Source of the DNA: Labrenzia sp. OB1
GTDB taxonomy: Bacteria > Pseudomonadota > Alphaproteobacteria > Rhizobiales > Stappiaceae
Length of the DNA stretch: 64,000 nucleotides
Reading direction: 5' to 3'
Assembly: GCF_001624695.1 (NCBI RefSeq)
Contig: NZ_JSEP01000008.1
Location: forward strand, 62,001-126,000
Below, one piece after another: positions 44,131-60,700 of the stretch. The first letter of the stretch is position 1, and each line of letters begins with the position of its first letter. Under the pieces are notes generated by a model. That model was not told the DNA's origin, ran no database searches, and saw nothing but the letters and a program-made list of their open reading frames with translations. Both the position numbers and the translations under genes were made by a program.

Positions 44131-45032
44131 TGCACACCACGCTTGGTTGCGAATGCGGCGTTGAAGCCGGTCGACGTCAGAAAGAGCCCCAGGAACAAGG
44201 TCACCGTTGCCACAATCGGGGCAATCATCCAGGCGTAATGACCGGTAAAGAGCGCGTTGAAATTCAGCGCCCAGAATATGACCGATCCAAGCGTCGGAAC
44301 CTCGACCTTCGACAGGCCGATCACCGCCAGGGCGGCTTCCGTGTTGATCGCGAAGAGAATGACATTGATGAAGCCGACCAGAATGTAGGCGGAGACATAG
44401 GGAAAGACTTCCCTGAGAATAATCTGCGGCGTGTTGGCGCCCGAGAACCGCGCCATGTTTATGAATTCACGCTCCCGCAGCGACAGCGCCATGGATCTTA
44501 CGGTCCTGGCATCCCAGGCCCAGCCGAAGATGATGATGATGAAGCCTACGGCGAGAAACGAGGTGTTGCCGCGGATCAACGCCCCCAGAATGATCAGGAC
44601 AGGCAACAGCGGTATGGTGATGATCGTATCGACAATGAGCATCACAAACCGCTCAAAATTGCCGCCGACGAAACCGGCGCTGAGGCCGACAGTCGTTGCA
44701 ATCACCGTGACCCCGACCGCGACAACGATGCCAAGGATCAGGGAGTTGCGGATGGAATAGACCAGATACCAGAAGATATCCTGGCCGAGCGCCGTGGTTC
44801 CAAGCAGATGATCGAACGAAGGTGGCAGGTTTCGCGTGTAGGAGCCCTGAAAGGAGGGATCGACCGGTGCGAACACCGGCAAAATCATGCTGCCGCCCCC
44901 CATGACGAGCAGGATCGTCAGGCCGATGATCAAACGGGGCGTGAGCAACCAGAGGATCGACTCCCTGCGACGCTCCGAGGACCGCGCCGCGGGCACCGGA
45001 ATTGAAGTTGCGGTTTCGCCGATTTCTGCCAT
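44127..45032 (-). CDS. ABC transporter permease (OppC/DppC type)
   Basis: A 301-residue permease with a cytoplasmic N-terminus, a first membrane span (LIIGLTILLVMGGGSMILPVF), and the DppC-type LLGTTALGQDIFWYLVYSIRNSL motif. The EAA-like loop is REREFINMARFSGANTPQIILREVFPYVSAYIL. It directly follows the OppB-type gene with no gap and overlaps the OppD-type gene by 4 bp. Confidence 0.93.
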   Translation of the reverse strand: MAEIGETATSIPVPAARSSERRRESILWLLTPRLIIGLTILLVMGGGSMILPVFAPVDPSFQGSYTRNLPPSFDHLLGTTALGQDIFWYLVYSIRNSLILGIVVAVGVTVIATTVGLSAGFVGGNFERFVMLIVDTIITIPLLPVLIILGALIRGNTSFLAVGFIIIIFGWAWDARTVRSMALSLREREFINMARFSGANTPQIILREVFPYVSAYILVGFINVILFAINTEAALAVIGLSKVEVPTLGSVIFWALNFNALFTGHYAWMIAPIVATVTLFLGLFLTSTGFNAAFATKRGVQ

Positions 45033-46034
45033 CTATTTATGCCGGATTCTTGGGTCGAGAAGAGGATACGCCAGGTCGATCAGGAGACCTGCCGTGGCGA
45101 CCGCAATGATCGAGACGGTTATTGCGCCATAAAGAACGTTGTAGTCTCCGCCGCTTGCGGCCTGGCGCATGATCAATCCGATGCCTGGATAGGAGAAAAT
45201 GATTTCTGTCAGCAGCGCACCGTTGAAGATGACACCCAGGGACAAGGCCAGGGCGGTCACTTGCGGCAACAGCGCATTGCGGAAAACATACCGGATCATC
45301 CGGGTCCGGTGCGTGGTTCCCTTGAGGCGCGCGAAAGTGACGTAAGGCTCTTCGCTGGTCGCAATCGCCAGCGCCTTCATGCTGAGGATGTTCCATCCGA
45401 AACCGGCAAGGACGAGCGCCAGGCCCGGCAGCAGTGAATTGAACAGGATCGTGCCGGCCTTATCGAGCGTCAATGCGCCGACCGGGAAAGTCGCGGACAG
45501 TGGAAAGATCGGAAAGATATAGGCGAAGATCATCAAGACCGAGATCGCCAGGATGTAATACGGGATCGGGTACAGAAGAATACCCACGAACTCCAGGATC
45601 GAGGCGGCCCGTTTCTTGTAGAAATACCCGGCCACCAGTCCCACCGTGTTTCCCAGGCACCAGGCGATGACCGTCGCGGTCATGAGCAGGCCCATCGTCC
45701 ATGGCAGCGCTTCGGCCAGCATGGAGGAAACGGGATGCGGAAAATACGTGTAGGACGGTCCGAAATCGAAATCGATCACGACCCGCTTCATGTAGGCCAG
45801 ATATTGCTCGAAGACACTGCCCTGAAGGCCATAGAGCTCTTCCAGGCTCTTGCGCAACTCGGCGAGGCCTTCCGGAGCAATCGTCGCACTGGCACGGCTC
45901 TGAAGTTCGCCAATATATCCGTCGATCGGATTGACGGGCATAAAGCGTGGAAGAGCGAAGGTGATGGACAGCCCGATAAAGAGAACAGCGAAATATAGCG
46001 CTATCCGTTTGGCGATGAACGTTACGACGCCCAC
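45033..46034 (-). CDS. ABC transporter permease (OppB/DppB type)
   Basis: About 333 residues from GTG 46034, which has GGGAG 8 nt upstream; TTG 46049 is an alternative. The start FIAKRIALYFAVLFIGLSITFALPRFMPVNPID is typical of OppB/DppB. Further features are the large periplasmic loop before TM2 and an EAA loop (ALAIATSEEPYVTFARLKGTTHRTRMIRYVFRNALLPQVTAL). It is second in the operon, separated from the binding-protein gene by a hairpin. Confidence 0.92.
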   Translation of the reverse strand: MGVVTFIAKRIALYFAVLFIGLSITFALPRFMPVNPIDGYIGELQSRASATIAPEGLAELRKSLEELYGLQGSVFEQYLAYMKRVVIDFDFGPSYTYFPHPVSSMLAEALPWTMGLLMTATVIAWCLGNTVGLVAGYFYKKRAASILEFVGILLYPIPYYILAISVLMIFAYIFPIFPLSATFPVGALTLDKAGTILFNSLLPGLALVLAGFGWNILSMKALAIATSEEPYVTFARLKGTTHRTRMIRYVFRNALLPQVTALALSLGVIFNGALLTEIIFSYPGIGLIMRQAASGGDYNVLYGAITVSIIAVATAGLLIDLAYPLLDPRIRHK

Positions 46035-46068
46035 GGCGTGCTCCCGCAAAATATGAGATGGACGGTCA

Positions 46069-46093
46069 ACGAGGCGGCGTCAGGCCGCCTCGT
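46069..46093 (-). terminator. Intercistronic hairpin after the Opp-type binding-protein gene
   Basis: ACGAGGCGGC (46069-46078) and GCCGCCTCGT (46084-46093) form a perfect 10-bp stem with a 5-nt loop, 20 bp after the binding-protein stop on the minus strand. No T-tract follows on that strand, so message stabilisation or partial attenuation is more likely than full termination. Confidence 0.55.
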
Positions 46094-46113
46094 CTTTCGA
46101 CACCTGGCCGTGA

Positions 46114-48021
46114 TTACTTGCCTGACGGCTCGATGTTCACGACGGTTTTCTTGAAGGAACTCCACCATGAGTAGGGCAGCGCATAGAAGTTGTCCGCCTT
46201 GGTGTAGTTGGTCCAGTAGGTGCTGTTCGTCGGGATGGTTGTCGGAATGCTCATGAGCGGGAGCATGTACATCTCCTCGACCACGATTTTCTGAATGTCC
46301 CGTCCGAGTTTTGCCATCTTCGGATCGTTCGTCGGCACGGTCGCACCAGTGGCCACCAGATCGTAGATCCGCGGGTCGGTGATCCGAACATAGTTGCCGT
46401 CCAGTCGTTGGTCGGCGTCGGTGGAATCCGCCGGAAGGACGAATTCGGGAGACCACTGCCGCCAGTTGTTGCGCCAGTTGGCGTTGAAGACACACTGCTG
46501 GTTCCAGGCGATCGTCATCTGGAAACGTGCATTGGTCCGCATGTAGGTGTTGAACTCACCGTTATCGACCTGGCGCGCATTGATGTTGAACCCGGCCTGC
46601 CGCCAGCTGTCGGCAATCGAGAAACCGAGCCGCTGCAGGATCTTGTTCCAGTCCGCCGGATAGACGAACTCAAGCACCATCGGCGATCCGTCGGGAAGCG
46701 CATAGAACCCGTCGCTGCCCCTTTCAATGCCGACTGAGGCCAGCAGTTTTTCAGCCTCCGCCGGATCGTGCTTCCACCAGCCGAAGCCGAAGGAATCCAC
46801 AATGCCGTCGCCTTCAGGCAGCTTCTCGGGATCGACGCCCTGCTCGGCCAGAACCTTCACAAGTTTCTGGTTGAAGGACGTGTCGAAGGGCTTGTAGCCG
46901 TCATCCAGAGTGAGGTTCTTCAGGAAATCCCGCATCGGTTCGTGAAAGATCGGCCGCGTCACCGGAGTATCGGCAACGGGCAGAGCCGTCGACTTGAACT
47001 GACCGTTGAGAGCGCTGATGCCGACCTGCTGGAGGTCCAGCGACAGAGCAAGCGCCCAGCGAAGTTCCTTCATGTCATAAGGCGACTTTTGCAGGTTGAA
47101 ATAAACACCCCAGCCGCATGCGTCGTTCATGTCATGGAAAGGAAACACCGGTGCGAAAGTTTCGATAGCCGGGTTACGCCTCTGGGCAGCCTCAATGGTA
47201 TCGGGGCTCATGAAGGTGTCGATGTCGTACTGGTTCTGGACGAATGCGAGACTGCGGGTCTCTTCCGTTCCAAAGTCCTTGTAAAGGATGTATTTCGGTG
47301 TCGGCTCGACGAGATTTCCCCAGCCTGAACGCTCCCAGTCGTCACGCTTTTCCCAGAGCTGCCAGAAGCCGTTCGGGTCGTACTCCTTGACCGTGTAGGG
47401 ACCAAGCAGAACGGGTTTTTCATTGTTGTAAGTGACGATCTCGTCGCCGAGCGGAGCCAGAACATGCTCCGGCAGCCAGACGATATGAGACCCCCAGGTG
47501 TAGACCCCCATACGGGTCAGAAAGTCATATGAAGGCTTCTGAGTCTCGACTTCGAACGTGTAGTCGTCGATTTTCTTCCAGTCCTTCAGGAAGGTGACAT
47601 AGTTGGTGACATTGGTCAGCTTGTCGCGATACTTGAAGGCAGTGTCTATCGAAAAGATAATGTCGTCGGTCGTGAATTCCTCGCCGTCGCTCCAATGGAC
47701 GCCTTCGCGGATCTTGATACGAAATTTGGTGTGATCGTCGTTCAGGACTTCCGGAAAACCATCGGCCAGTTCCGGGTAGGATTCACCCGTCGAGGTGTCC
47801 ATTTCCCAGAGATAGCTCCAGCCTAATTCGCGAAACCCGCGCCAGTGAGCATACCTGTTCAGCGGGTTCATTTGCGTGGCATTGGACGAGCGGCCATCGA
47901 ATGTCTGTACGATGAGCGTTTCGTTTCTCGGCGTACCGACATCTGTCATCTGTGCCGCCGCAGCTGTAGCCCACAGGACTCCCGCCGCGGACGCCAAGAG
48001 TATTTGGCGAAACGGATTCAT
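46114..48021 (-). CDS. ABC transporter substrate-binding protein (SBP family 5, OppA-like)
   Basis: A 635-residue periplasmic binding protein with a signal peptide (MNPFRQILLASAAGVLWATAAAAQ). It has the family-5 layout: YLWEMDTSTGESYPELADGFPE, IREGVHWSDGEEFTTDDIIFSID, and the WALALSLDLQQV segment. The group binds peptides, but also many oligosaccharides, for example in plant-cell-wall-degrading bacteria. With a glycoside hydrolase in the same operon, a saccharide ligand is more likely here. First gene of the five-gene transporter operon. Confidence 0.92.
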   Translation of the reverse strand: MNPFRQILLASAAGVLWATAAAAQMTDVGTPRNETLIVQTFDGRSSNATQMNPLNRYAHWRGFRELGWSYLWEMDTSTGESYPELADGFPEVLNDDHTKFRIKIREGVHWSDGEEFTTDDIIFSIDTAFKYRDKLTNVTNYVTFLKDWKKIDDYTFEVETQKPSYDFLTRMGVYTWGSHIVWLPEHVLAPLGDEIVTYNNEKPVLLGPYTVKEYDPNGFWQLWEKRDDWERSGWGNLVEPTPKYILYKDFGTEETRSLAFVQNQYDIDTFMSPDTIEAAQRRNPAIETFAPVFPFHDMNDACGWGVYFNLQKSPYDMKELRWALALSLDLQQVGISALNGQFKSTALPVADTPVTRPIFHEPMRDFLKNLTLDDGYKPFDTSFNQKLVKVLAEQGVDPEKLPEGDGIVDSFGFGWWKHDPAEAEKLLASVGIERGSDGFYALPDGSPMVLEFVYPADWNKILQRLGFSIADSWRQAGFNINARQVDNGEFNTYMRTNARFQMTIAWNQQCVFNANWRNNWRQWSPEFVLPADSTDADQRLDGNYVRITDPRIYDLVATGATVPTNDPKMAKLGRDIQKIVVEEMYMLPLMSIPTTIPTNSTYWTNYTKADNFYALPYSWWSSFKKTVVNIEPSGK

Positions 48022-48385: not shown

Positions 48386-49354
48386 ATGGAATACAAGCAT
48401 TTGGGCCGCACCGGCCTCACAGTCAGCCGCCTTTGTCTCGGCACGATGAACTTCACATGGACGACGGAAAAACCGGACGCCTTCAAGCTCATGGATGCGG
48501 CGCATGCACACGGAATCAACTTTTTTGACACTGCCAATCGCTATGGCCGCCCGGCCTGGGGCGATACCGAGTCCCTTATAGGCGAATGGTTTTCTCTAGG
48601 CGGTGCACGCCGCCATAAAACCGTCCTTGCAACCAAACTGTACGGTCTGATGGGCGACTGGCCGAATGACGGCAAGCTTTCCGCCCTGAATATCCGCAGG
48701 GCTCTCGATGCCAGCCTCAAACGCCTCAAGACCGACTACATCGACCTGTATCAGTTCCACCACATCGACCGCGACACTCCATGGGACGAGATCTGGCGGG
48801 CGATGGAGGTCGCGGTTCAGCAGGGCAAGATCCTTTATGCCGGCAGTTCAAACTTCGCGGGATGGCATATCGCCAAGGCGCAGGGTGTCGCCCGTTCGCG
48901 GAATTTCATGGGGCTGGTGTCAGAGCAGTCCATCTACAATCTGATCGAAAGAAACCTTGAACTGGAGGTGCTTCCGGCCTGCCAGGACTTCGGTCTTGGC
49001 GTCATTCCCTGGTCGCCCCTGCACGGGGGATTGCTGGGCGGCGTCCTGCGAAAACAGAACCAGGGCATCCGCCGGCTGGAGGGCCGCGCGGCCGAGACGC
49101 TCGAAGCGCTTCGCCCCCGGATCGAGCGATATGAGGCTTTCTGCGACGAACTGGGTCATGAACCCGGCGATGTTGCCCTTGCCTGGCTCCTGCATCAGCC
49201 GGGCGTCACGGGTCCGATCATCGGACCGAGAACGTCCGAACAACTGGAGGCTTCTGTCCGTGCTCTGGATCTGACTCTTGACGCAACGGCCCTGTCCCGC
49301 CTCGACGAGATCTTTCCAGGACGCAAGACCGCACCGGAAGATTATGCCTGGTAA
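48386..49354 (+). CDS. Aldo/keto reductase (YajO/Tas-like)
   Basis: A 322-residue NADPH-dependent reductase with the AKR barrel. Catalytic-tetrad contexts are NFFDTANRYGR (Asp, Tyr), VLATKLYG (Lys) and DLYQFHHIDRDTPWDEIWRAME (His). The GWHIAKAQGVARSRNF, SEQSIYNLIERNLELEVLPAC and GVTGPIIGPRTSEQLEASV segments bind cofactor. It resembles the L-glyceraldehyde-3-phosphate-reductase/YajO branch, but the substrate is unknown. It is followed after 62 bp by a second AKR gene and is divergent from the Opp-type operon. Confidence 0.9.
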   Translation: MEYKHLGRTGLTVSRLCLGTMNFTWTTEKPDAFKLMDAAHAHGINFFDTANRYGRPAWGDTESLIGEWFSLGGARRHKTVLATKLYGLMGDWPNDGKLSALNIRRALDASLKRLKTDYIDLYQFHHIDRDTPWDEIWRAMEVAVQQGKILYAGSSNFAGWHIAKAQGVARSRNFMGLVSEQSIYNLIERNLELEVLPACQDFGLGVIPWSPLHGGLLGGVLRKQNQGIRRLEGRAAETLEALRPRIERYEAFCDELGHEPGDVALAWLLHQPGVTGPIIGPRTSEQLEASVRALDLTLDATALSRLDEIFPGRKTAPEDYAW

Positions 49355-49416
49355 CACATCCGACATGCGAGAGCCGAGAGGTCGAGCGCTGTCCACTAAA
49401 CCGAACGAGGGATAAG

Positions 49417-50250
49417 ATGAGCACACTCAACAATATCAACGACCGCGTCGAGTTGAACAACGGAACGCGGATGCCGTGGCTGGGACTCGGGGTCTTTCAG
49501 ATGTCGGATGACGAGGCACGCCAGGCGTGCCTTCACGCTCTCGACGCCGGCTATCGCAGCCTCGACACTGCCGCAGTCTACAAGAATGAAACCGGTGTCG
49601 GCCAGGCTCTTCGCGAGACGGCATTTTCGCGCGACGAGCTTTTCGTGACCACGAAACTGTGGAACGACGATCAGCGTGCACGACGGGCCTCAAGCGCCTT
49701 TCAGGAAAGCCTCGACCGCCTCGGAACCGACTATGTCGACCTTTATCTCGTGCATTGGCCCGTTCGCGAACACATTGCCGAAACATGGAAAGCCATGGAG
49801 GACATCTACTCGAGCGGCCGCGCCAAAGCGATCGGGGTAAGCAACTTTCTTCCTCATCATCTTGAGAAACTTCTGGCGGTCGCCGATGTCGTTCCCACGG
49901 TCAATCAGGTCGAATTCCATCCCTATCTGGTTCAGCCGGACCTGCTCGGCTTCTGCAAGGACCACAAGATTGTCGTGGAAGCCTGGAGTCCCCTGATGCA
50001 GGGACAGGTCGCCAGCGAAAAGACATTCGCGGCCCTTGGAGAGAAATACGGCAAAACCCCTGCCCAGATCGTCCTGCGCTGGGACCTGCAGCATGGTCTC
50101 GTGACCATCCCCAAGTCCGTCCGCGCCAGCCGCATTCAGGAAAATGCCGGCATCTTCGATTTCGAGCTTTCCGAAGCGGACATGAGTGTCCTGGACGCAC
50201 TCGATCAGACAAGACGCTTCGGGCCGGATCCCGATACGTTCGGCTTTTAG
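49417..50250 (+). CDS. Aldo/keto reductase (2,5-diketo-D-gluconate-reductase-like)
   Basis: A 277-residue AKR of the DKG reductase/AKR5 type. It has ALDAGYRSLDTAAVYKNETGVGQAL (Asp, Tyr), LFVTTKLW (Lys) and VDLYLVHWPV (His). GVSNFLPHHLEKLL, NQVEFHPYL, VEAWSPLMQGQ and the NADPH-binding IPKSVRASRIQENAGIFDF also match. It belongs to a different AKR subfamily from the preceding gene, so the two probably reduce or oxidise different intermediates. It converges on the kinase gene. Confidence 0.92.
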   Translation: MSTLNNINDRVELNNGTRMPWLGLGVFQMSDDEARQACLHALDAGYRSLDTAAVYKNETGVGQALRETAFSRDELFVTTKLWNDDQRARRASSAFQESLDRLGTDYVDLYLVHWPVREHIAETWKAMEDIYSSGRAKAIGVSNFLPHHLEKLLAVADVVPTVNQVEFHPYLVQPDLLGFCKDHKIVVEAWSPLMQGQVASEKTFAALGEKYGKTPAQIVLRWDLQHGLVTIPKSVRASRIQENAGIFDFELSEADMSVLDALDQTRRFGPDPDTFGF

Positions 50251-50355: not shown

Positions 50356-51642
50356 TCAGGATCCGCGAACGAAAGCATCGAAAACATCCGGGGACCCAAC
50401 CTGCCCGCCCTTGAACATCACGCGCAGACCGTCCCGTTGCGCGATGCGGGAACGGGCTCGGCAAACGGCGACGCCCTTTCCCAGTCTTCTGTCGAATTCC
50501 AGGCTTTCCAGATCTATGTTCTGCGCAATGATGCTGGATGTGTCGCCGCCTGCAATCCCGAGAACCTGCAAGGCCACCCGGGACAAGACACGTGACACCA
50601 CTTCGGCAAGACGTGACGACAGGTCCTTGGCGGAAAGCCCATATTCCTCCTCAGGGAGAAGGTGGGTCAGCATGTGCCTGCCTTCCCGGATGCTTTTACA
50701 GCATTCCTCCACGAGCGCGGCGAAAAGCGTCTCGTCTTCAAGGTCTTTTGCAGTCACGGCACGTTTCCTGAAAGACACGGCGGTCGCAACCTGCTCGGCC
50801 GTGACGGACGAACGGCTTCCGGCGACAATCAGACAGGGTGTGCCCGGGCGGTCCGCCGGAGCCGGTTGCGCACTCCCACCCTGAGTATGCCTAGCGGTTG
50901 CCAGCGCTTCTGCAACGCTGCTCGCTCCGACCAGCAGCAGCGGAGTTCCGATGCCTGCTGTTATGTCGGTGAGCACCCTGCCGACGATCTCCAGGTGATG
51001 CTGGTCCGTCGCATCGAAGAGAAAGCGTTTTTGCCCGGACTGAACGGCCTCCTGCAGAAGCGAGGCCAGGGCTTTCTCACCCATGGCAAGTTGATTCAAA
51101 CAGACGAGTTGAAGACCATCAAGGCCTTGCTCACCAAGATGCAGGCGCAGGTCCGCCTCCGCCATTGGTGTGATCGGATGGCGTTTCATCACCGGATGCC
51201 GGTCGATGCGATAAGTTTCGCCGTCGCCTCCCCGGGCGAACAGAGTTCCAAAAGAACAGTAGCGGCCGAGGCTCGGCTGACCGCCGATGACTGCAGTCAC
51301 AGCCGGCTGCAGATGCCGTTCAAGCGCGCCGACCGCGACCCCGATGTTTCCTGTATGCACCGCGGAATCGAAGGTGGAGCAGACCTTGTAGTGGACAATG
51401 CGCGGCCGAAACGCCGCGACTTGCGGGGCAAGCATATCGATCTGGCGGATTATCACCTCTGGCGGCAAGGCCCTCAGATCCGTCGCGATGCCGAGTGCTT
51501 CAAGGCTCCCGCTGCTTACGGTTTCAGCAGTCGGAGTTTGGAGATAGAGCTGGGCTCGCCACCCCCGTTCGGCAAGCGTGGCGAGCGTATCGGAAGCACC
51601 GGTAAAATCATCACCGATAAAGACGTAGGGCACCGGCACCAC
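50356..51642 (-). CDS. DUF1537 acid-sugar kinase, 3-oxo-isoapionate-kinase-like
   Basis: A 428-residue kinase of the four-carbon acid sugar kinase (DUF1537) family. The N-terminal domain has FIGDDFTGASDT and the VIGGQPSLGRYCSFGTLFA and YRIDRHPVMKRHPITPM segments. These I associate with the members that sit next to RuBisCO-like proteins (OiaK type). The C-terminal nucleotide-binding domain has IVAGSRSSVTAEQV and LGIAGGDTSSII (ATP-binding GGDT). It starts at GTG 51642, just after the RuBisCO-like gene, whose end supplies a GGAGGG Shine-Dalgarno. It should phosphorylate the acid sugar that the RuBisCO-like protein then cleaves. Confidence 0.87.
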   Translation of the reverse strand: MVPVPYVFIGDDFTGASDTLATLAERGWRAQLYLQTPTAETVSSGSLEALGIATDLRALPPEVIIRQIDMLAPQVAAFRPRIVHYKVCSTFDSAVHTGNIGVAVGALERHLQPAVTAVIGGQPSLGRYCSFGTLFARGGDGETYRIDRHPVMKRHPITPMAEADLRLHLGEQGLDGLQLVCLNQLAMGEKALASLLQEAVQSGQKRFLFDATDQHHLEIVGRVLTDITAGIGTPLLLVGASSVAEALATARHTQGGSAQPAPADRPGTPCLIVAGSRSSVTAEQVATAVSFRKRAVTAKDLEDETLFAALVEECCKSIREGRHMLTHLLPEEEYGLSAKDLSSRLAEVVSRVLSRVALQVLGIAGGDTSSIIAQNIDLESLEFDRRLGKGVAVCRARSRIAQRDGLRVMFKGGQVGSPDVFDAFVRGS

Positions 51643-51644
51643 CC

Positions 51645-52922
51645 TTAACGCCCTCCGTAAAACGCGAGCGCGGCAGCAAGCTCTGGAGACTCTTTTGTGG
51701 CCCGGTCCAGCTCAATGCCCTCGGCAGTCGCCTCATAGGCCTGACGCAGGCTTGCAACGCCCGCCGCGGGACCTTCGGGATGCGCCAGGATGCCGCCACC
51801 GGCAAGAAACATGAAATCGGCCGATCCGGCGGCTTTCATGGTCGCGGGCAATGTGCCTGCCCATTGACCGGAAGAGTAGACCGGCATGACCAGATCCGAA
51901 GTGTCCCTTGCATCAACCGCAACCGGCTGCAGGCAACGCCGCCCTGCCGTCACCACTTCGTCGTCGGAATCGGAGAACTTTCCGCCGATCCCGTGGACAT
52001 GCAAATGGTCGATCCCTGCAAGACGGTAGAGCGCCAGGTAGGCTTCGACACCGATCCCGAGCAGCGGGTGGCGCGACAGGGCGCCATATCCGTTCCGGTG
52101 CGCGTGTATGGCCAAAGGGGTGGATTTGCGCAGGGACTGCATTGCCGACAGTCCGCACCAGTTGAGACTGGCCATCACGCAGTCACCGCCTTCCTGTGCC
52201 ACAAGGTCCGCGTGACGGCGGATGGCGTCGGTTTCGTCCGTGACGTTGAACGCCATCAGCACATTGCGGCCGGTGCGTTCGCGGTAGGCCCTGATGACGG
52301 CCATCACGGCCGGAACCCGTTCTGCGAGCGGCGCATGGTCCGGATTGGCGCAGATTTCATCATCCTTGATGAAATCCACACCGGCTTCGCACATCATGGA
52401 GACCAGATCGGCGATCTCGGAGGGAGAAAGCCCTACATTCGGTTTGACGATTGTTCCGAAGAGCGGCCGATCCTTCACATTCAGGCTTTTGCGTGTGCCC
52501 TCGACACCGAGTTTCGGCATCTCGAAACGGGCTCTGTAGGACGCAGGCAGGGTCACTTCGACAAGACGAAGACCGGACACTTCGCCAAGATCATAAAGAT
52601 TGCCCGCGACAGTAGAGGCCAGCGTCGGCAGATTGGCGCCGATATTGGCGGTCGGATAGGCAATTTTGATCTTCGCCCGGCGCCATGGGCCGGTATATCC
52701 CTTGCGCTCCATGTAGGAACTCGGGAGACTTGCCTCGCCGGCAGGCTCCAGTTCCTCGACCGACACCACCTGGGCTGCGGCCCGCAAGCGCAGTTCGTCG
52801 GTTTCCCCCGCGACCCGGACGAAGGTCCCGCAACTTTGCTCGCCCGCCATGATGCCCGCGACGGATTCCGGATCGAGCGGAGTTTCTATCAGATAGTCTG
52901 CTGTTATGGTTTCTCGGGTCAT
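51645..52922 (-). CDS. RuBisCO-like protein (RLP), OiaX/OiaT-like
   Basis: A 425-residue form IV RuBisCO large-subunit homologue. Active-site features are kept: GTIVKPNVG (Lys160), the carbamylation/metal site DFIKDDE (Lys186, Asp188, Glu189), IHAHR (His276-Arg277), HVHGIGGKF (His311, Lys316), YSSGQWAG and AGGGILAH. Because a DUF1537 kinase follows immediately, the best match is an enzyme acting on 3-oxo-isoapionate 4-phosphate. It could be either the decarboxylase (OiaX) or the transcarboxylase/hydrolase (OiaT); these cannot be told apart by eye. No small subunit is present. It lies between the VOC gene and the kinase gene. Confidence 0.88.
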   Translation of the reverse strand: MTRETITADYLIETPLDPESVAGIMAGEQSCGTFVRVAGETDELRLRAAAQVVSVEELEPAGEASLPSSYMERKGYTGPWRRAKIKIAYPTANIGANLPTLASTVAGNLYDLGEVSGLRLVEVTLPASYRARFEMPKLGVEGTRKSLNVKDRPLFGTIVKPNVGLSPSEIADLVSMMCEAGVDFIKDDEICANPDHAPLAERVPAVMAVIRAYRERTGRNVLMAFNVTDETDAIRRHADLVAQEGGDCVMASLNWCGLSAMQSLRKSTPLAIHAHRNGYGALSRHPLLGIGVEAYLALYRLAGIDHLHVHGIGGKFSDSDDEVVTAGRRCLQPVAVDARDTSDLVMPVYSSGQWAGTLPATMKAAGSADFMFLAGGGILAHPEGPAAGVASLRQAYEATAEGIELDRATKESPELAAALAFYGGR

Positions 52923-52929
52923 TCAGGCC

Positions 52930-53469
52930 TCAAAAAGTGGACAGGTCCGGAAACGGACGGACGGGATCGGAACCGTCCCAACCGCTGGACGCTTCCCGGA
53001 TCAGATCGAACAGGCGGCCCTTGGGTCCGACAACCTCGGACAGTTCGATCACGGTCCCCGGATGGGCTTGCCGGTCGAAATAGACGAAGCGTCCGTTCTC
53101 GCCGACCTTGCCGCTCATCTTCTGCCTGAAACCGTCGGCTTCCATCTTTGCAAGGTCGCCGTCGTAGTTCTGGGTCCAGAATGCGACATGCTGAAGACCC
53201 AGGTGCCCGGCCAGTTTGAAATCCCTGTACATCGACGGCGCATCGTTGCGCGTCTGGATGAGTTCCACCTGCACGGGGCCACTGTTGGCGAGCGCGACCG
53301 AGTTGTGCACCTCATAGGCCTTGCCGTCATAGAGATAGTCTTCAATCGGGACTTTGGGATTGTAGTACCATGGGCCGACGCCCATGATATCGTACCAGTG
53401 GGCCATCGCGGCCTCAATGTCGTCAACCACATAGCCAAGCTGACGGATCGGTCCCAGGAACCTGCTCAT
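52930..53469 (-). CDS. VOC (glyoxalase/bleomycin-resistance fold) protein
   Basis: A 179-residue protein with two beta-alpha-beta-beta-beta modules: RQLGYVVDDIEAAMAHWYDIMGVGPWYY and LGLQHVAFWTQNYDGDLAKMEADGFRQ. Possible metal ligands are Glu in QVELIQ, His in LQHVAFW and Glu in VIELSE; the first position is Gln or absent (RQLGYV). It resembles Glyoxalase_4/methylmalonyl-CoA-epimerase-like members. It lies 7 bp upstream of the RuBisCO-like gene and 8 bp after dctM, so it is part of the operon. It may epimerise, isomerise or open a sugar-acid intermediate. Confidence 0.82.
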   Translation of the reverse strand: MSRFLGPIRQLGYVVDDIEAAMAHWYDIMGVGPWYYNPKVPIEDYLYDGKAYEVHNSVALANSGPVQVELIQTRNDAPSMYRDFKLAGHLGLQHVAFWTQNYDGDLAKMEADGFRQKMSGKVGENGRFVYFDRQAHPGTVIELSEVVGPKGRLFDLIREASSGWDGSDPVRPFPDLSTF

Positions 53470-53477
53470 CTTTGTAC

Positions 53478-54755
53478 CTATTGCATGAAGAGTTTTGGAA
53501 GCATCGTCGAGACGGCCGGAACGGCGGAAACGACGAGCAGTGACAGAAGAAGCGGAATGAAGAACGGCAGCACGCCGCGGATGACCGAATGGACGGGCAT
53601 CTTTGCAACGATCGCCACCATGTAGAGGCTCATGCCGATGGGCGGCGTCAGCAGACCGATCATCAGATTGAGCACGAAGACGATGCCGAGCTGAAGCGGG
53701 TCGACGCCGGCCGCATGCATCGCGGGTGCGACGATCGGGGCGATGATCAAGATGGCTGCGATGGATTCCAGCACCATTCCGACGACAAGCAGCAGCACGT
53801 TCAGCAAAAGCAGCAGGACGAAAGGATCATCCGACAGACCCAGCAGGAAAGCGCCCGCCTTTGCAGGCACCTGATCCAGCGTGAGGACCCAGGCGAAAAG
53901 CGCCGCCGTGGAGACAATGAAGAGTACGCCCGCCGTCGCCTCTGCCGTTTCCTTCAGGCTCTCAAGGACCGCCCGTGGGGTCAGCGTTCTGTAGACGCAA
54001 AATCCGATAAAGAGAGCATAGGCCACAGTCACCCCGGCAACTTCGGTCGGGCCGAAATAACCGCTGATCAGACCACCGATCAGAAGAATGGGTGCCAGTA
54101 GCGCCGGTATGGAGACAAGCGCCTTTCGGGCTACCGCCCGCAAGGACGGGCTGACCGTATCCCTGGGCAGGTCGTAGATCCGGGCGACGATGGCGACCTG
54201 GATCATGAGGAAAATGGTGATCAGGACAGCCGGAACGATGCCGGCGATCAGCAACTGCACAGCCGAAACATTGGCGACGCTGGCATAGATGATGATCGGG
54301 ATCGACGGCGGGAAAATCGGACCGATTGTGGCTGCCGCTATGGTGATCCCGGCCGCAAAATTCTTCTTGTAGCCTTGCGCCGTCATCTGATCGATCTGGA
54401 TCTTGCCGAGCGCACCGATATCGGCGAGCGCCGCACCGGACACACCGGAAAAGATCAGGCTGACGAGAATGGAAACCTGTGCGACCGCGCCGCGGAACCT
54501 GCCGACGAGCAGACGCACCAGATCGAATATATGCGTGGTCACCCCCATCGCATTCAGCAGGCTCGCCGCAAGAATGAACAACGGAACCGCCAGCAGCGGC
54601 GTGGTGTCGAGGGAATTGACGGCACGCTGAGCCAGGACGTTGATCGGCAATCCGAACGCAACGATCACCACTGACGAGGCAAGACCGAGAGCCACAGCTA
54701 TCGGCACTCCGATGAGCAGACAGAAAATGAACAGAAGAACGAGAACAAGGCTCAT
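53478..54755 (-). CDS. TRAP transporter large permease (DctM type)
   Basis: A 425-residue membrane protein with about 12 hydrophobic segments of the DctM/TRAP-large family. It contains LVSLIFSGVSGAALADIGALGKIQIDQM, AAATIGPIFPPSIPIIIYA and VFVLNLMIGLLTPPIGMSLYMV. It transports an organic acid or acid sugar with a Na+ gradient, together with the DctQ and DctP proteins encoded just upstream. Its start overlaps the dctQ stop (ATGA at 54752-54755). Confidence 0.94.
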   Translation of the reverse strand: MSLVLVLLFIFCLLIGVPIAVALGLASSVVIVAFGLPINVLAQRAVNSLDTTPLLAVPLFILAASLLNAMGVTTHIFDLVRLLVGRFRGAVAQVSILVSLIFSGVSGAALADIGALGKIQIDQMTAQGYKKNFAAGITIAAATIGPIFPPSIPIIIYASVANVSAVQLLIAGIVPAVLITIFLMIQVAIVARIYDLPRDTVSPSLRAVARKALVSIPALLAPILLIGGLISGYFGPTEVAGVTVAYALFIGFCVYRTLTPRAVLESLKETAEATAGVLFIVSTAALFAWVLTLDQVPAKAGAFLLGLSDDPFVLLLLLNVLLLVVGMVLESIAAILIIAPIVAPAMHAAGVDPLQLGIVFVLNLMIGLLTPPIGMSLYMVAIVAKMPVHSVIRGVLPFFIPLLLSLLVVSAVPAVSTMLPKLFMQ

Positions 54756-55267
54756 GGTTTTTGGCTGTTTTCCCCGTCCGGTGAGTTGCCGCTGAGAAGC
54801 TCGGCAAGTCGAACGGCGGATATCATCAGGAGGAGCGCGAAGCCGATCAGGGCCGGTGCGTAGAACACCCAGTTCGGCAGACCCAGCGACGGGGTGGAGA
54901 ATTTCCAGGCCCGCGACAGAAAGGACTGAAAGCCGACGAGGGTGATGATTGCGAACGCCAGGACGGCGAATTCGCTGAGGCAGTTAAGGTAGCGGCCCAG
55001 TTTTTCTGGAAGGCTCGTCGGCACGATGTCGACGGCCACATGGCGACCCTGCAGGGCCAGAACCGGCACGCCCAGGAACACGAGCGAGACACCGCAGAAA
55101 CGGGCCAGTTCATCCGCCCAGGGCATCCCAATATCAAGCATGTTGCGACCGGCAACCTGTGCGACGATCAGAATGGCCATGAGTGCCAGAAGGAATACGG
55201 AAACGGTCCGGCAAAGACGTGCGGAGAGCATCAAGGCCTTTCGGCTGACTGAAAGAATGCTGCTCAT
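54752..55267 (-). CDS. TRAP transporter small permease (DctQ type)
   Basis: A 171-residue four-span membrane protein with the DctQ signature WADELARFCGVSLVFLGVPVLALQGRHVAVDI. ATG 55267 is chosen because the longer open frame upstream (to 55405) overlaps the binding-protein gene and is not DctQ-like. It lies 31 bp after dctP and overlaps dctM by 4 bp. Confidence 0.9.
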   Translation of the reverse strand: MSSILSVSRKALMLSARLCRTVSVFLLALMAILIVAQVAGRNMLDIGMPWADELARFCGVSLVFLGVPVLALQGRHVAVDIVPTSLPEKLGRYLNCLSEFAVLAFAIITLVGFQSFLSRAWKFSTPSLGLPNWVFYAPALIGFALLLMISAVRLAELLSGNSPDGENSQKP

Positions 55268-55298
55268 GACCGCCTGCTCTTTTCCGGACCGTCTGGTC

Positions 55299-56333
55299 TT
55301 ACTTGATCGCTCTGATCTTGTCGTAGAGCGCACCGTATTTTTCGCCGAAGCGCTCATCGACAAGTTTTTGCACCGATTCCCGGAAGGCCTCGACCTGGAG
55401 CCCATCGTCCGGTCCGATCACGGTCATGCCAAGATCACGCAGCGCCTGCGTGTCCTTTTCCTCATTTTCCTCGATCGCCTTTGTCGCGCGCTCGCGGATT
55501 TCACTGGCGGCGGCAGTGATGGCTGCCTTTTGTTCATCGGACAGTCTCTGCCATGAGTCCTCGTTCATGACGACGACTTCGGCGTTGGACATGTGCCCGG
55601 TCTGCATCAGGTGAGACTGCACTTCGTAAAGCTTGACATTGAGAACCACGTTGACCGGGTTCTCCTGGCCAGCGACCACACCGGTTGCCAAGGCTGTCGG
55701 CACTTCGGACCAGTCGACGGGAACAGCTGCCGCGCCCAGGCCCTCGACGGCCGTGGTGTAGATCGGAAACGGTACGGCGCGGATTTTTTCACCGGCGAGA
55801 TCTTCAGGAGACCGAACGGCCTTGTTGGCGGTCAGGTTCCGGCGCCCGAAATAATGGGCATAGATCACCCGGATGTTCGCGGCTTCGATCAGCCCCTCGT
55901 TCAGTTCCTGCATGACCGGCGAGTTAACGTCCATGACCTTCATGAGGTGGTCGACGTCGCGGTAGAGGTAGGGCGTGTCGAGTGCCGCAAACGGCTCATA
56001 CAGGGATCCGATACCGCCGGCCGTGTTGTGGGAAAAGTCAATCGTTCCCAACGATACGGCTTCCGCCAGCTCCTTCAGCTTTCCAAGCTGGGAGGAAGGA
56101 AACACCTGCACTTCGATGTCACCGCCTGAATGTTTTCCGACGGCTTCGGCGAACCAGTCTGCCTGCGCACCAGCGACACTTGCCGGCTCGTTGTTGTGGG
56201 CATAACGCAGCGAAGTCGACTGTGCCGACGCCAGACTCGGCAGCATTACAGAAGCCGAAGCAGCCATGCAGAGCGCAAGCGCCGACCTGCGGGTCATACG
56301 GCCGGTGCAGTGAGCCAGGATATTACGTTTCAT
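55299..56333 (-). CDS. TRAP transporter substrate-binding protein (DctP type)
   Basis: A 344-residue periplasmic binding protein with a twin-basic-like, Sec-type signal peptide (RMTRRSALALCMAASASVMLPSLASAQ). The DctP layout is present: LRYAHNNEPASVAGAQADWFAEAV, IEVQVFPSSQLGKLKELAEAV, and the carboxylate-binding Arg region GEKIRAVPFPIYTTAVEGLGAAAVPVDWSEVPTAL. The conserved Arg implies a carboxylate group on the ligand, in keeping with an acid sugar. ATG 56333 has GGGAGG 5 nt upstream; ATG 56336 is also possible. First gene of the six-gene TRAP/VOC/RLP/kinase operon. Confidence 0.92.
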   Translation of the reverse strand: MKRNILAHCTGRMTRRSALALCMAASASVMLPSLASAQSTSLRYAHNNEPASVAGAQADWFAEAVGKHSGGDIEVQVFPSSQLGKLKELAEAVSLGTIDFSHNTAGGIGSLYEPFAALDTPYLYRDVDHLMKVMDVNSPVMQELNEGLIEAANIRVIYAHYFGRRNLTANKAVRSPEDLAGEKIRAVPFPIYTTAVEGLGAAAVPVDWSEVPTALATGVVAGQENPVNVVLNVKLYEVQSHLMQTGHMSNAEVVVMNEDSWQRLSDEQKAAITAAASEIRERATKAIEENEEKDTQALRDLGMTVIGPDDGLQVEAFRESVQKLVDERFGEKYGALYDKIRAIK

Positions 56334-56493
56334 CATTTCCTCCCTTGATGTTTTTTGATGGGTCTTCTCTGGCTGCTCAAACTCCTCACAGCAGAAAAAC
56401 CGATGACTTGACTTGAGGCTAGGAAACCGCATGCTTCTGGTCAAACAAGATTTTTTGAGGTTTATTGAGGTGTCTTCAAAACTGCCCGGCAAA

Positions 56494-57555
56494 ATGCGCG
56501 CGCCTTCGGAACGGGTGCCTCTCATGAACGACGTCGCGGAAATGGCCAATGTTTCGCTTGCGACCGTCGACCGGGTCCTGAACCGGCGCAAGGGCGTCAG
56601 GTCGCGCACCGTCGAACGGGTGCTTCGGGCCGCGCTTGACCTCGGCTACATGGACGCGGCGGAACTCGAACGCCTGCAGAATCCGCGCCCGCCGAATATC
56701 GCCTTCCTGATCCCCATGGGAGGCAATCCCTATTTCCGGCTTCTGGGAGAAAAGCTGAAAGAAATAGCGCAGACGACGTCCCGCGATCAGACGCAGGTAC
56801 GCTGCTTTTTCATCGAGAGTTTCAACGCCGCCGCTCTGGCCGCCGCGGTCCGCCATCATGCGAAATGGGCCGACGGCATCGCCTTCATGGCCATCGACCA
56901 TCCGCTGGTGCGCGAAGCGGTCGAGGAACTCGGAGCAGCGGGATGCAGGATCGTGACGATCGTTTCCGACCTGCAGCATCCCGCACGTGAAGCCTATATC
57001 GGTCTTGACAATCAGACGGCTGGACGCACGGCGGCCTATCTGCTCGGACGCTTCTGCCGATCCGACACGGGCAGTGTCGCTCTTGTCGCGGGAAGCCGGA
57101 ATTACCGGGCGCATGCCGAGCGGGAAATGGGCTTTCTGGGATTGCTGGAAGAAGAATATCCGAACCTTCGCATTGTCGGCATTCGCGAAGGACGTGACGA
57201 TCGCGACCGGAATTACCGCCATACGATCTCTCTTCTGGAGCAGAACCCGGATCTGGTGGGGATCTACAATGTCGGCGGCTCTTCCGATGGTATCGCCAGG
57301 GCACTGAGAGAAAAGGAAAAGTCCCAGGAAGTCATCTTCATAGGACATGGACTTACGCCCGACACGCGCAGATTGCTTATCGAAGGGTCGATGGACGCGG
57401 TCATCAATTCCGATCCCGACGCCATCATCGAAGCGGTTCTCAGGTTGCTGGGCAAACCGAAAGACGAAAACCCCGCAGGGCCTGCCTCCGTCAAGATGGA
57501 AACCATCTTCCGCGAGAACATCCCGCAGTTCAGCCGGCCCAGGGATCAGTCATGA
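56494..57555 (+). CDS. LacI-family transcriptional regulator
   Basis: About 353 residues from ATG 56494. The helix-turn-helix and hinge are near the start: LMNDVAEMANVSLATVDRVLNRRKGVRSRTVERVLRAALDLGYM. A periplasmic-binding-protein-like effector domain follows (NIAFLIPMGGNPYFRLLGEKLKEIA, AYIGLDNQTAGRTAAYLLGRF, VGIYNVGGSSDGIARAL). GTG 56470 or ATG 56413 are alternative starts. None has a strong Shine-Dalgarno. It is divergent from dctP and probably controls the acid-sugar operon in response to its substrate or an intermediate. Confidence 0.92.
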   Translation: MRAPSERVPLMNDVAEMANVSLATVDRVLNRRKGVRSRTVERVLRAALDLGYMDAAELERLQNPRPPNIAFLIPMGGNPYFRLLGEKLKEIAQTTSRDQTQVRCFFIESFNAAALAAAVRHHAKWADGIAFMAIDHPLVREAVEELGAAGCRIVTIVSDLQHPAREAYIGLDNQTAGRTAAYLLGRFCRSDTGSVALVAGSRNYRAHAEREMGFLGLLEEEYPNLRIVGIREGRDDRDRNYRHTISLLEQNPDLVGIYNVGGSSDGIARALREKEKSQEVIFIGHGLTPDTRRLLIEGSMDAVINSDPDAIIEAVLRLLGKPKDENPAGPASVKMETIFRENIPQFSRPRDQS

Positions 57556-57763: not shown

Positions 57764-60700
57764 TCATGCATCCTCGACGTCCTGCCGCTCGGCCTCATCC
57801 CACACTTCGCGAATCCGCACCACCTCACTGCTGTGGCCACTGCGCTTGGCCATAGTGAGTGACGACATCAGCAGCCTTTTCGCTGAAGCCACCCTGCGCC
57901 GTGCCAGAAGCACGCGCGAATAGTCTGTCATGATCCTGTTAAGTCGCAGGGTCATGTCGTTTCTACGCGCTATGGCCATCGCCTTGGTCATTAACCGGCC
58001 CGAACTCGAATGGTCCCCGGCGTTGTAAAGCATCATTCCCTGGGCATGCAATGTGTCGACCAGCAGCGAATCCAGTCCCATGACCTCGGCATAGCGTTGC
58101 GCCTCCCGCAGCTTGACCCGGTCAGATAGCACCCGCTCCCAGGGTTGTTCCAAGTGACGCTGAGACACCCAGACTTCGCTGACCAGTATGAGGTGGCGAA
58201 CATCCTCATGCCCGCCCTTTTCGGAATAGTCCCGTGCCCTGGCCAGATAGGACCAGGCTTCGTCCGCGTCATCCGGCGCGACCAGCAGAGCCAGATGGCG
58301 CAGAAAGATTGCCAGGGCACGATCTTCCTGATCGTTCGAAAGCGCCCGAGCGACCTTCAGCAATTCGAATTTTGCCTCGCGCCGTCGGCCCTGTAGCAGG
58401 GCGATAAGCCCGAGATATCCCTTTGCCAGATGCGCCACTCTCCTTGTTCCGTTGTCTTCGGTCGAAAGAATGGCCTTCAGGCGCGCCTCGGCACTGGCAA
58501 GCCGTCCCCGCTCGTATTGAATGATCGCCAGGTTGAGCGAGAGCATGTTGTGCATGCGTCCGCCGTCCAATTGCCCCTCGATTTCGCGATTGATGAAGAT
58601 CGCTTGCCGTGCATGGCCAATCGCCTCGATGAGGGCGCCCTGCACGAGGCAGGTCACGGCGACCTCGTTATAGAGCCAGACAATCTCGTCGATATAAAGC
58701 GCATTGACCCGATACTTGTCCGGATCGGCATCGTATTTCCGCAGCGCCTCTTTCCCGGCATTCTTTTCTTGCTCTCCTTTCTTTCCCTGTTCGAGTTTCC
58801 TTTCCTGCTCGGTTTTCAGATCCATGGCGTCGCTTCTGGGCTGGTCATGCACAGCCCAGGCCTTGCGAAGAATCCAGCGCAGGCGGACACGGTAGGTCTC
58901 GAAGTGCCCGCGTTTGCGGATGAAATCTCTGCCGGTCATGTCCTCGTCGAAACGGGACACCGCAGCGATGGAAAAGCAGGTGCGCGCCAGGGAAAGTCCG
59001 GCCCGGAGCGCCTGCACCCGGGTAATCACGTCGTCAGTGTTGAAAATCGGCGCGTTGCGCGCAGCATCCTTGTGGCGGATATCCGGATATTGGCTAAGCC
59101 CAAGCAACAGCCGCCGAAGGAACAGGTAGCCTTCCGAAGACAGCCGCACCACCCTCGATGGCATCGATGCATAGAGCGTCGGCGAAAAACTGTTTGCCGA
59201 AACCGGTGGGGCCGTCAGGTGACCGAGGCCATGGAAACAATAGCCCTGGATCTGGCGATGGAGAGCATATCGAAATTCGCGCTCCGCGGCCCAGCCGTCG
59301 AAAGCCTGCCGAAGCGGCTCGTAGACTTCCACCGGCATCCGGTCGCCGGCGTTCTCCGAAACTTCATGCAAGCGTGCGAGCTTGTTCAACCGGACAAGCT
59401 TCGGATGCGGTTTCAATCGAAACACCAGGCCGCGCTCGCTCATGGCAGCCAGGGCCATTGCAACCATGCGCCGCCGGCTGAGATTGGGAACAAATTGCAC
59501 CTTGTTGAAATAGTCGCGAATGTCCGGCAACCGGACCAGCACGTTGGGACTGACCGGACAGCCCAGAACCGCGATATTGCGCAAAAGCAATGTGTGCAAT
59601 TCCCAGTCATTGTCCGGGTCGCCAATGATGGACGTTCGTCGGCAGATCGCCATCACCGTATCCAGGACCACATCCTCCTTTGCATTGGCACTGGTATTGC
59701 GCAGATCCGAAACAATCTTTTCCAGCATCTCGTTGACGATCTCGCCGCCCCGTACGAAAGAGCGGTTCGAAAAGACCAGATGTTCGGCAGCGGCGAGCAA
59801 AATGGTCAGACAGAACCTGTTGCCCGAAAGCAGGCTGGTGAGGTCCTGCCAGTCACGGCTGTCCTCGGAGCCATCGTCTGGAACGAACTCCCCAAAGAGC
59901 CAATTTTTGAACTGTTGAAACGTGTGCTGAGTGACCGGCTGGTCGAAGTCAAAGTCGCTTTTGGTACCTGTTTTGGCCGCGAAGTCCTCGAACGCCTCCC
60001 GTGCCGCCTCAGCCACACCGATGTGAAAGTCTCTTCGCGTCCTGAGGTATTCCGTATTCACTTCCGGCGGAAAATCCCTGTCCCAGAGCCCCTGCCGGTC
60101 CTCGCGAAGTTTATCGGCCAGGCCCTTGATCGTTTTGTCCAACTCTTTGGATTTCTCATTGGTAAACGGGTCGTCTTGCGAATCCGCAGCCGTTTCCCGC
60201 TGGCGGAGTTTTCTCGCCAGCAAAAGCGCGATGGCCAGGGTCGAAAAATTGTCGACCAGAAACCTCGGAGGGTCTATGTCCCTGGCAAAATGGACGTAAG
60301 TGAGATATTTTTTTGGGCGGGTCTCTCCGTTGGAGGCCTCATCGCCTGTAGTCGGGGTTTTTCCAGTTTTCTCATCCGGCTTTTCGATCCAGTCGACCTT
60401 GCCGACCTCAGCTCTCTTGCGGATGGCATAACGAATGTCTTCAGCAAGTTCAGGTGAAGCGCTCGTTCCGCGCGGATAGGTGTCACCGCCTTTCAGGAAG
60501 CCGCCCATCTTGCCGAGATCGCCGATCGCAATCAGGTCAAACGGCAGGTCCTCCTGTTCCTCGGCCCCTAGAAACCTTAGGTAGTCGGCGATTTCACAGT
60601 TCTTGGGCTGTTTCCTGTCATCGAAGAGCAATTCGACGGCGTTTATGCAGATGAGCAGTCGCGGATTTCCGGAAACAAGGAAAATATTGCGGCCCTGCGC

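Follow-up and report, generated by a model that had tools for sequence, protein, structure and literature searches.

A widespread operon variant that joins a vicinal oxygen chelate protein to a RuBisCO-like protein and a DUF1537 kinase

The genome of Labrenzia sp. OB1 carries an operon in which the gene of a RuBisCO-like protein (RLP) stands between the genes of a protein of the vicinal oxygen chelate (VOC) superfamily and a DUF1537 kinase. It lies in a stretch of 64,000 nucleotides (contig NZ_JSEP01000008.1, positions 62,001 to 126,000), which we call the window. This cassette is a real and widespread variant of the RLP sugar-acid pathways, undescribed in our literature searches so far. On the comparative evidence, the VOC protein probably substitutes for the oxidoisomerase or dehydrogenase step of such pathways. 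For the operon as a whole we propose that it is self-contained and serves one imported acid: the VOC protein would isomerise a keto acid for the kinase and the RLP, replacing an NAD-dependent oxidoisomerase. We give this proposal a probability of about 0.42. It builds on direct observations: the operon, the co-conservation of its genes, the exclusion of ApnO-like genes, the intact metal-ligand and catalytic positions and a single operator.

The VOC protein is a fixed partner of the RLP

The operon lies on the minus strand and reads TRAP dctP, dctQ, dctM, VOC, RLP, kinase, with a LacI-family gene divergent from it (Table 1). Only 7 nt separate the VOC and RLP genes, and 2 nt lie between the RLP stop and the kinase start.

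We compared the window with 80 named loci whose RLPs are 57–74% identical to the window RLP; these are the best 80 of at least 556 relatives in a species genome collection. By tblastn the VOC gene is directly upstream of the RLP gene in 76 of them, with a gap of 0–316 nt (median 20). Two of the four misses are contigs that end at the RLP (L109, L129), and the other two are metagenome-assembled genomes (MAGs) with no VOC gene nearby (L124, L127). A DUF1537 kinase gene follows within 600 nt of the RLP in all 80 loci. A tblastn-based test found an ApnO-like gene (the presumed NAD-dependent oxidoisomerase of apionate-type RLP pathways), PdxA2 or an aldolase in none of the 80.

Other collections give the same picture. 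The VOC gene is at adjacent coordinates in 18 of 18 plasmid records with an RLP of at least 56% identity. None of the other 42 among the best 60 of 366 RLP plasmid records, with RLPs of at most 51%, belongs to the 20 records with a VOC protein of at least 60%. A sample of the order (297 genomes) has the VOC gene beside all 11 RLPs of at least 61% and beside one RLP of 53% (genome G194). A sample of the phylum (398 genomes), which overlaps with the order sample (the Labrenzia genome and G194 are among the shared ones), has it beside all seven RLPs of at least 57% and again beside the 53% RLP of G194. Neither sample has it beside RLPs of 44–52% identity, and the phylum sample holds 13 other such RLPs. 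Likewise, none of 29 loci with an RLP of 44–51% identity has the VOC gene; most of these have an ApnO-like PGDH_C protein, and others have a short-chain dehydrogenase/reductase (SDR).

The adjacency of VOC and RLP genes is thus far beyond chance, and the pairing is certain. The VOC–RLP clade has members from Alpha-, Beta- and Gammaproteobacteria. A first-pass annotation of the window had taken the VOC protein for an operon partner of the RLP and had called for a survey of their neighbourhood; with 76 of 80 orthologous loci carrying it, the VOC gene is indeed a fixed operon member rather than one missing from orthologous loci.

Two side observations concern this set. The cassette of Roseinatronobacter sp. 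S2 (L047) looks decayed, with split TRAP genes and a VOC match that covers 46% of the protein only. Seven plasmid records with RLPs of 47–51% identity (H59, H74, H76–H78, H80, H81) come from hosts that, by name, look like halophilic archaea.

The window RLP is neither a bona fide RuBisCO nor OiaX

The window RLP belongs to the RuBisCO superfamily (Pfam RuBisCO_large 220.5 bits, cut-off 30.1; RuBisCO_large_N 38.8 bits, cut-off 20.7) and aligns over its own length with solved RLPs and RuBisCOs. Its closest solved structure is 3nwr (608 bits); the entry names it no further than 'a rubisco-like protein', and our literature search brought up no paper about it. In an alignment with the Pyrococcus RuBisCO 2cwx, the protein keeps the KP lysine (K160), the carbamylation lysine and metal ligands (K186, D188, E189), the HxHR motif (H273, H275, R276), H308, the loop-6 lysine (K315), S351 and the glycines 375–377. 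The first-pass description of an RLP with intact catalytic lysine, HxHR and loop-6 residues next to a VOC protein therefore stands. Its view that the RLP is very likely a true enzyme is also supported, as judged from these residues the protein looks catalytically competent. The second lysine of the KPK motif, a mark of bona fide RuBisCO, is replaced by N162; asparagine occupies this position throughout the VOC clade (95 rows).

We rejected OiaX (3-oxo-isoapionate-4-phosphate decarboxylase) as the identity of the window RLP, which scores 408.7 bits against a cut-off of 700 for NCBIfam NF042437. As a control, the second RLP of the Labrenzia genome scores 786.9 bits and is a true OiaX by this cut-off; the two RLPs are 40% identical. 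The OiaX gene sits in an apparently canonical apiose locus (L156, G000:C1:128000-147900) with two ApnO-like genes, an OiaK-like kinase, a sugar-type ABC transporter, a transaldolase, an RpiB-like protein and DAK-like genes, several of these named from sequence alone. Hence the window cassette is a separate system. The first-pass annotation had suggested placing the RLP among OiaX, OiaT and other clades; by score it falls outside OiaX and, in our tree, into the clade of RLPs with a VOC neighbour. The kinase is not OiaK, the 3-oxo-isoapionate kinase (238.8 bits, NF042436 cut-off 700), and also stays below the cut-off for OtnK, the 3-oxo-tetronate kinase (157.4 bits of 350).

VOC and ApnO-like genes exclude each other

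We built a tree from 134 RLP rows and the window row, which left 126 distinct rows after identical ones were dropped; two are contig ends. The tree is a quick one with SH-aLRT supports in place of a bootstrap and has long end branches (for example L001, L050, L152, L003). The RLPs with a VOC neighbour form one clade of 95 rows (SH-aLRT 99), which includes the two VOC-less MAG rows; the RLP of G194 (L038) lies elsewhere. On this tree the VOC label changes four times, compared with a mean of 28.6 for shuffled labels. The earlier proposal that the VOC protein defines a pathway variant gains support from this clade.

The redox neighbours within 6 kb differ between the two groups. Rows with VOC have no recognised redox enzyme in 88 of 92 cases, an SDR in four and an ApnO-like gene in none. 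Rows without VOC have an ApnO-like gene in 19 of 32 cases, an SDR in six and neither in seven. Two of these seven (L001, L021) come from short loci, and ApnO-like genes do appear when these are read further out (L156, L043). The ApnO-like protein combines PGDH_C (PF16896) with a weak KARI_N match, which fits isomeroreductase-type chemistry. Since 88 of 92 rows have no recognised redox enzyme, the substrate of the cassette would already be at the keto level. An extra SDR gene opens the operon in four VOC cassettes (L008, L075, L108, L116); these SDRs are 76–77% alike and may form the substrate of the cassette by oxidising a hydroxy acid.

G194 gained the VOC gene independently. Its RLP is nested in the ApnO-type clade (SH-aLRT 77, 98 and 100 on successive branches) with the VOC gene adjacent, and we found no ApnO-like gene anywhere in the G194 genome. 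The G194 RLP has the residue of the ApnO clade at 16 of 16 clade-marking columns, so the RLP did not change when the VOC protein came in. The G194 kinase shares 51% identity with that of an ApnO-type locus (L040) and 32% with the window kinase. These genes suggest that the VOC protein can precede an ApnO-type kinase and RLP where ApnO is absent. Alignment columns in which the RLPs of VOC and ApnO types differ might have pointed to a changed reaction, but the G194 RLP speaks against that.

Whole genomes agree with the local pattern. Seven of ten searched genomes with a VOC-adjacent RLP have no ApnO-like gene, and the three that have one (the Labrenzia genome, G146, G245) contain a second RLP as well. 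Two genomes (G206, G744) carry a lone LacI–TRAP–VOC module, and each has an ApnO-type RLP elsewhere. The exclusion, G194 and the two lone-module genomes are the main reasons why we read the VOC protein as a functional substitute for the oxidoisomerase. We infer that the product of the VOC protein is identical or equivalent to that of ApnO-like proteins. The first-pass annotation, whose interpretation is thus supported in part, had thought of an epimerase, isomerase or lactone-opening step; the comparative data favour a substitute for the oxidoisomerase or dehydrogenase.

What the VOC protein may catalyse

The structure model of the VOC protein has a pLDDT of 91.8. Its closest fold is 3gm5, a putative methylmalonyl-CoA epimerase (Z 17.0, root-mean-square deviation 2.0 over 138 residues), followed by true methylmalonyl-CoA epimerases (Z 12–13); HPPD and hydroxymandelate synthase also appear (Z 10–12), in lists that are non-exhaustive and thereby exclude no unlisted family. 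Alignment with the methylmalonyl-CoA epimerase of the same genome places the metal ligands at Q10, E69, H94 and E142, the first histidine being replaced by glutamine. None of the four positions varies among 16 homologues, which include the window protein, or in another set of 16 taken from RLP-linked loci. With the paired beta-alpha-beta-beta-beta fold of the model and these four positions the protein is a member of the VOC superfamily, and it is predicted to bind a metal.

Thus the protein shares its fold and three of four metal ligands (E69, H94, E142) with methylmalonyl-CoA epimerase, and one may ask whether it is an epimerase of this type. It would then invert the stereocentre next to the carbonyl of the keto acid or its phosphate and so deliver the right isomer to the kinase and the RLP. 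We rejected methylmalonyl-CoA epimerase itself as its identity (TIGR03081 21 bits, cut-off 114.95); the two proteins of the genome are 26% identical, and the VOC protein has a C-terminal extension. The low TIGR03081 score, together with the glutamine at the first ligand position and an exclusion of ApnO-like and SDR genes that is unexpected for an accessory epimerase, make an epimerase unlikely.

Equally doubtful is an enediol-type isomerase that interconverts 2-oxo and 3-oxo acids, the job of OtnI done by another fold, in which case the compound degraded would be a linear keto-aldonate and not a branched one. Glyoxalases work by an intramolecular redox isomerisation through an enediolate, which is of this kind. 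The kinase matches 3-oxo-tetronate kinase as well, yet this score too is below its cut-off, and the closest families of RLP and kinase are the branched-acid OiaX and OiaK. The nearest solved relatives of the transporter's DctP include 4p47, and pantoate or erythronate is reported as bound ligand of close homologues of 4p47 (PMC11668362).

It is very unlikely that the VOC protein is a glyoxalase for carbonyl detoxification, or a resistance protein, and has only the operon in common with the RLP: the Pfam family Glyoxalase_4 includes such proteins and distant VOC homologues (43–53%) occur in unrelated degradation neighbourhoods, but the fixed position, the independent recruitment in G194 and the exclusion of ApnO-like and SDR genes speak against it. 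An O2-dependent dioxygenase of the extradiol or HPPD type, which would cleave the import and leave a fragment to the RLP, is slightly less credible still: HPPD and hydroxymandelate synthase among the fold neighbours speak for it, but the Q/E/H/E ligand set differs from the 2-His-1-carboxylate facial triad.

A proposed pathway

We return to the NAD-independent isomerisation of a keto acid. In the first step, an acid that is at the keto level from the start would enter through the transporter, which is of TRAP type in the window and in other loci a second TRAP type or a four-gene ABC transporter. The VOC protein, with a bound metal that chelates neighbouring oxygens, would then isomerise it without NAD to a 3-oxo acid, equivalent to the product of the NAD-dependent oxidoisomerase (ApnO-like) in apionate-type RLP pathways. 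Next the DUF1537 kinase would phosphorylate the 3-oxo acid. Finally the RLP would break a C–C bond of the phosphorylated 3-oxo acid by the later half-reactions of RuBisCO. This would either decarboxylate the compound or, by transcarboxylation/hydrolysis, yield 3-phosphoglycerate and glycolate, for which the pathway would need no more enzymes; the absence of downstream enzymes fits such products.

Both the substrate and the exact isomerisation are a guess; the latter could be a ketol rearrangement or an enediol isomerisation from 2-oxo to 3-oxo. In a more specific form, the VOC protein would be a new type of enzyme, a metal-dependent ketol (acyloin) isomerase that acts alone and without NAD, in effect an ApnO/KARI-type isomeroreductase reduced to its isomerase half and built on the scaffold of an epimerase. 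It would serve either kinase and RLP or kinase, PdxA2 and aldolase for one widespread keto acid. We regard this form as improbable. We gave up an idea built on 2,3-diketogulonate and a benzilic rearrangement, taken from work on ascorbate, for which a literature search listed no paper: the RLP cassette lacks an oxidant that could prepare the decarboxylation.

VOC proteins without an RLP and other points against the pathway

Several observations weigh against the proposed pathway. First, VOC orthologues 69–73% identical to the window protein, with the same TRAP/LacI pattern, adjoin PdxA2 instead of an RLP in Azospirillum thermophilum, G119 and G084. In A. thermophilum and G084 the VOC gene lies by PdxA2, a DUF1537 kinase, DeoR and a DeoC/LacD-type aldolase, in G119 by PdxA2 alone. 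Compared with such PdxA2/DUF1537 tetronate-type operons, the window shares LacI, TRAP and VOC with A. thermophilum, which has no RLP there and a kinase only 34% identical to that of the window. More distant VOC proteins (57–60%, with a different TRAP) occur with kinase, DeoR and aldolase in all four loci with refined gene calls (L029, L030, L031, L034). Two further loci (L032, L033) look alike by cruder gene calling, which hides the VOC and PdxA2 genes of L032 under an open reading frame (ORF) of the opposite strand. PdxA2 near VOC was confirmed in G266, G027 and G239. VOC orthologues in operons devoid of RLPs imply that the VOC protein belongs with the transporter, the regulator and the substrate, not with RLP chemistry. 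Judged by gene content, two downstream routes can follow it, of the RLP or the PdxA2 type. The weakest point of our proposal is that PdxA2 oxidises a hydroxyl group and a 3-oxo acid would offer none, so the product there may be a different one or our model may be incomplete.

Second, five rows without VOC (L124, L127, L149, L150, L154) have neither an ApnO-like gene nor an SDR within 6 kb in our count of neighbours, although at about 5.4 kb the L154 genome does have an ApnO-like gene, interrupted by one in-frame stop. The MAG loci L124 and L127 even have the clade's own RLP and kinase. Third, the fold that the model places nearest, methylmalonyl-CoA epimerase, is that of a 1,1-proton-transfer enzyme and not of an isomerase. 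Fourth, we take the PGDH_C protein beside RLPs to be ApnO by function, as reportedly described by Carter et al. 2018.

Import and regulation

The transporter varies between loci and VOC, RLP and kinase stay constant. A four-gene ABC transporter, by eye of the polar-amino-acid type, replaces TRAP in nine of the 80 named loci (L076, L081, L083, L096, L103, L111–L114); others have one of two TRAP types.

The nearest solved relatives of the window DctP are 4p47, 4nq8, 4p9k/4pak and 4pdh, whose ligands we take to be D-erythronate and pantoate. DctP has an invariant R167, R187 and N227, which resemble, by spacing only, the carboxylate set Arg152/Arg173/Asn213 given for 4P47 in PMC11668362; the imported compound is most likely a carboxylate. 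We dropped the DctP relatives as a clue to the substrate, since the same source supports these ligands in general only. The DctP of the fused TRAP type matches 4oan (461 and 438 bits). Acetolactate is presumably modelled in this structure. The cited portion of PMC5812351 lists 2-acetolactate among TRAP ligands with the entry unnamed. We give this clue little weight because the 4oan gene has no VOC gene beside it; its neighbour is an acyl-CoA-ligase-like gene.

The divergent LacI gene is present in most of the 80 named loci. Between it and the transporter, upstream stretches contain an exact TGATG-N5-TGATG repeat in 66 of 82 cases, compared with 0.08 expected from the rest of the same loci, and 74 of 82 have it when one mismatch is allowed, compared with 0.9 expected. 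Cassettes of distant bacteria share the repeat: RLP loci have it, as do the independent G194 locus, the lone G744 module and, in their TRAP promoters, the PdxA2-type loci L046, L028 and L027. Before PdxA2 itself it was not found in L046 and L028 (two of the 82 stretches), so PdxA2 is not shown to be in a shared regulon. The LacI protein presumably binds this repeat. It would be unusual for a LacI-type regulator to read, as this one seems to, a direct repeat of 10-bp period instead of a palindrome. Positions 56346–56360 hold the only exact copy in the window, and the whole genome of 6.0 Mb has a single match to the refined pattern. Hence the regulon seems to be this cassette alone, with no further regulated enzyme evident.

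Neighbouring genes in the window

Table 1. Features of the cassette in the window (positions count from the first nucleotide of the window)
Feature	Position	Strand	Remarks
DUF1537 (four-carbon acid sugar) kinase	50356..51642	-	GTG start; SBD_N 167 bits, NBD_C 69.8 bits (Pfam)
RuBisCO-like protein (RLP), 425 aa	51645..52922	-	PF00016 RuBisCO_large 220.5 bits
VOC protein, methylmalonyl-CoA-epimerase-like fold (model), 179 aa	52930..53469	-	PF13669 Glyoxalase_4 78.0 bits
TRAP large permease DctM	53478..54755	-	PF06808 361.9 bits
TRAP small permease DctQ	54752..55306	-	PF04290 95.8 bits; start codon unsettled, listed ORF to 55405
TRAP solute-binding protein DctP	55299..56339	-	PF03480 209.3 bits
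Proposed operator, direct repeat CATCA-AAAAA-CATCA (TGATG-N5-TGATG on the other strand)	56346..56360	-	upstream of and adjoining the dctP ribosome-binding site
Divergent LacI-family regulator	56413..57555	+	LacI 42.7 bits, Peripla_BP_4 132.6 bits; listed from TTG, true start probably further in

Two aldo/keto reductase genes (48386–50250) lie on the opposite, plus strand and thus outside the VOC–RLP operon. Together with an ABC importer set on the minus strand (43150–48021), by eye of the oligopeptide type, they flank the cassette; we found no link to it. On the other side, an ORF of 2068 amino acids (57764–63970, minus strand) adjoins the cassette. It has weak matches to SIR2-type defence proteins near residues 315–390 (PADLOC PDC-S25 with an E-value of 4.5e-6, ThsA with 0.009) and may encode a large defence NTPase.

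Discussion

Our literature searches, which lacked the two key papers of the field, found no VOC or glyoxalase-fold protein tied to an RLP in print. Thus they gave no sign that a known pathway of this clade already includes the VOC protein, a case that the first-pass annotation had raised.

Among known systems, the OiaX/OiaK branch of D-apiose and D-apionate catabolism, reportedly described by Carter et al. in 2018, is like the window cassette in its adjacent pair of RLP and DUF1537 kinase. The window cassette differs from it by having no ApnO-like gene, by its VOC and TRAP genes and by an RLP below the OiaX cut-off. The hamamelose pathway of Kim et al. is said to include dehydrogenases and a lactonase, both of which the window cassette lacks; SDR-type RLP clusters such as L048 look nearer to that system. 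OiaT, a transcarboxylase/hydrolase, yields 3-phosphoglycerate and glycolate. In the portions of the sources that we cite, two RLPs carry out decarboxylation and transcarboxylation/hydrolysis of 3-oxo-isoapionate 4-phosphate (PMC6302742), and the D-hamamelose RLP ends a branched-sugar pathway in 3-phosphoglycerate and glycolate (Kim et al. 2018, via PMC8914248).

RLPs show how RuBisCO chemistry is reused, and few of their reactions are known. Here a large RLP clade comes with a constant set of three enzymes and almost no redox enzyme, which makes the pathway directly testable. If our proposal is true, a VOC-fold enzyme that replaces an oxidoisomerase would add a reaction class to the VOC superfamily.

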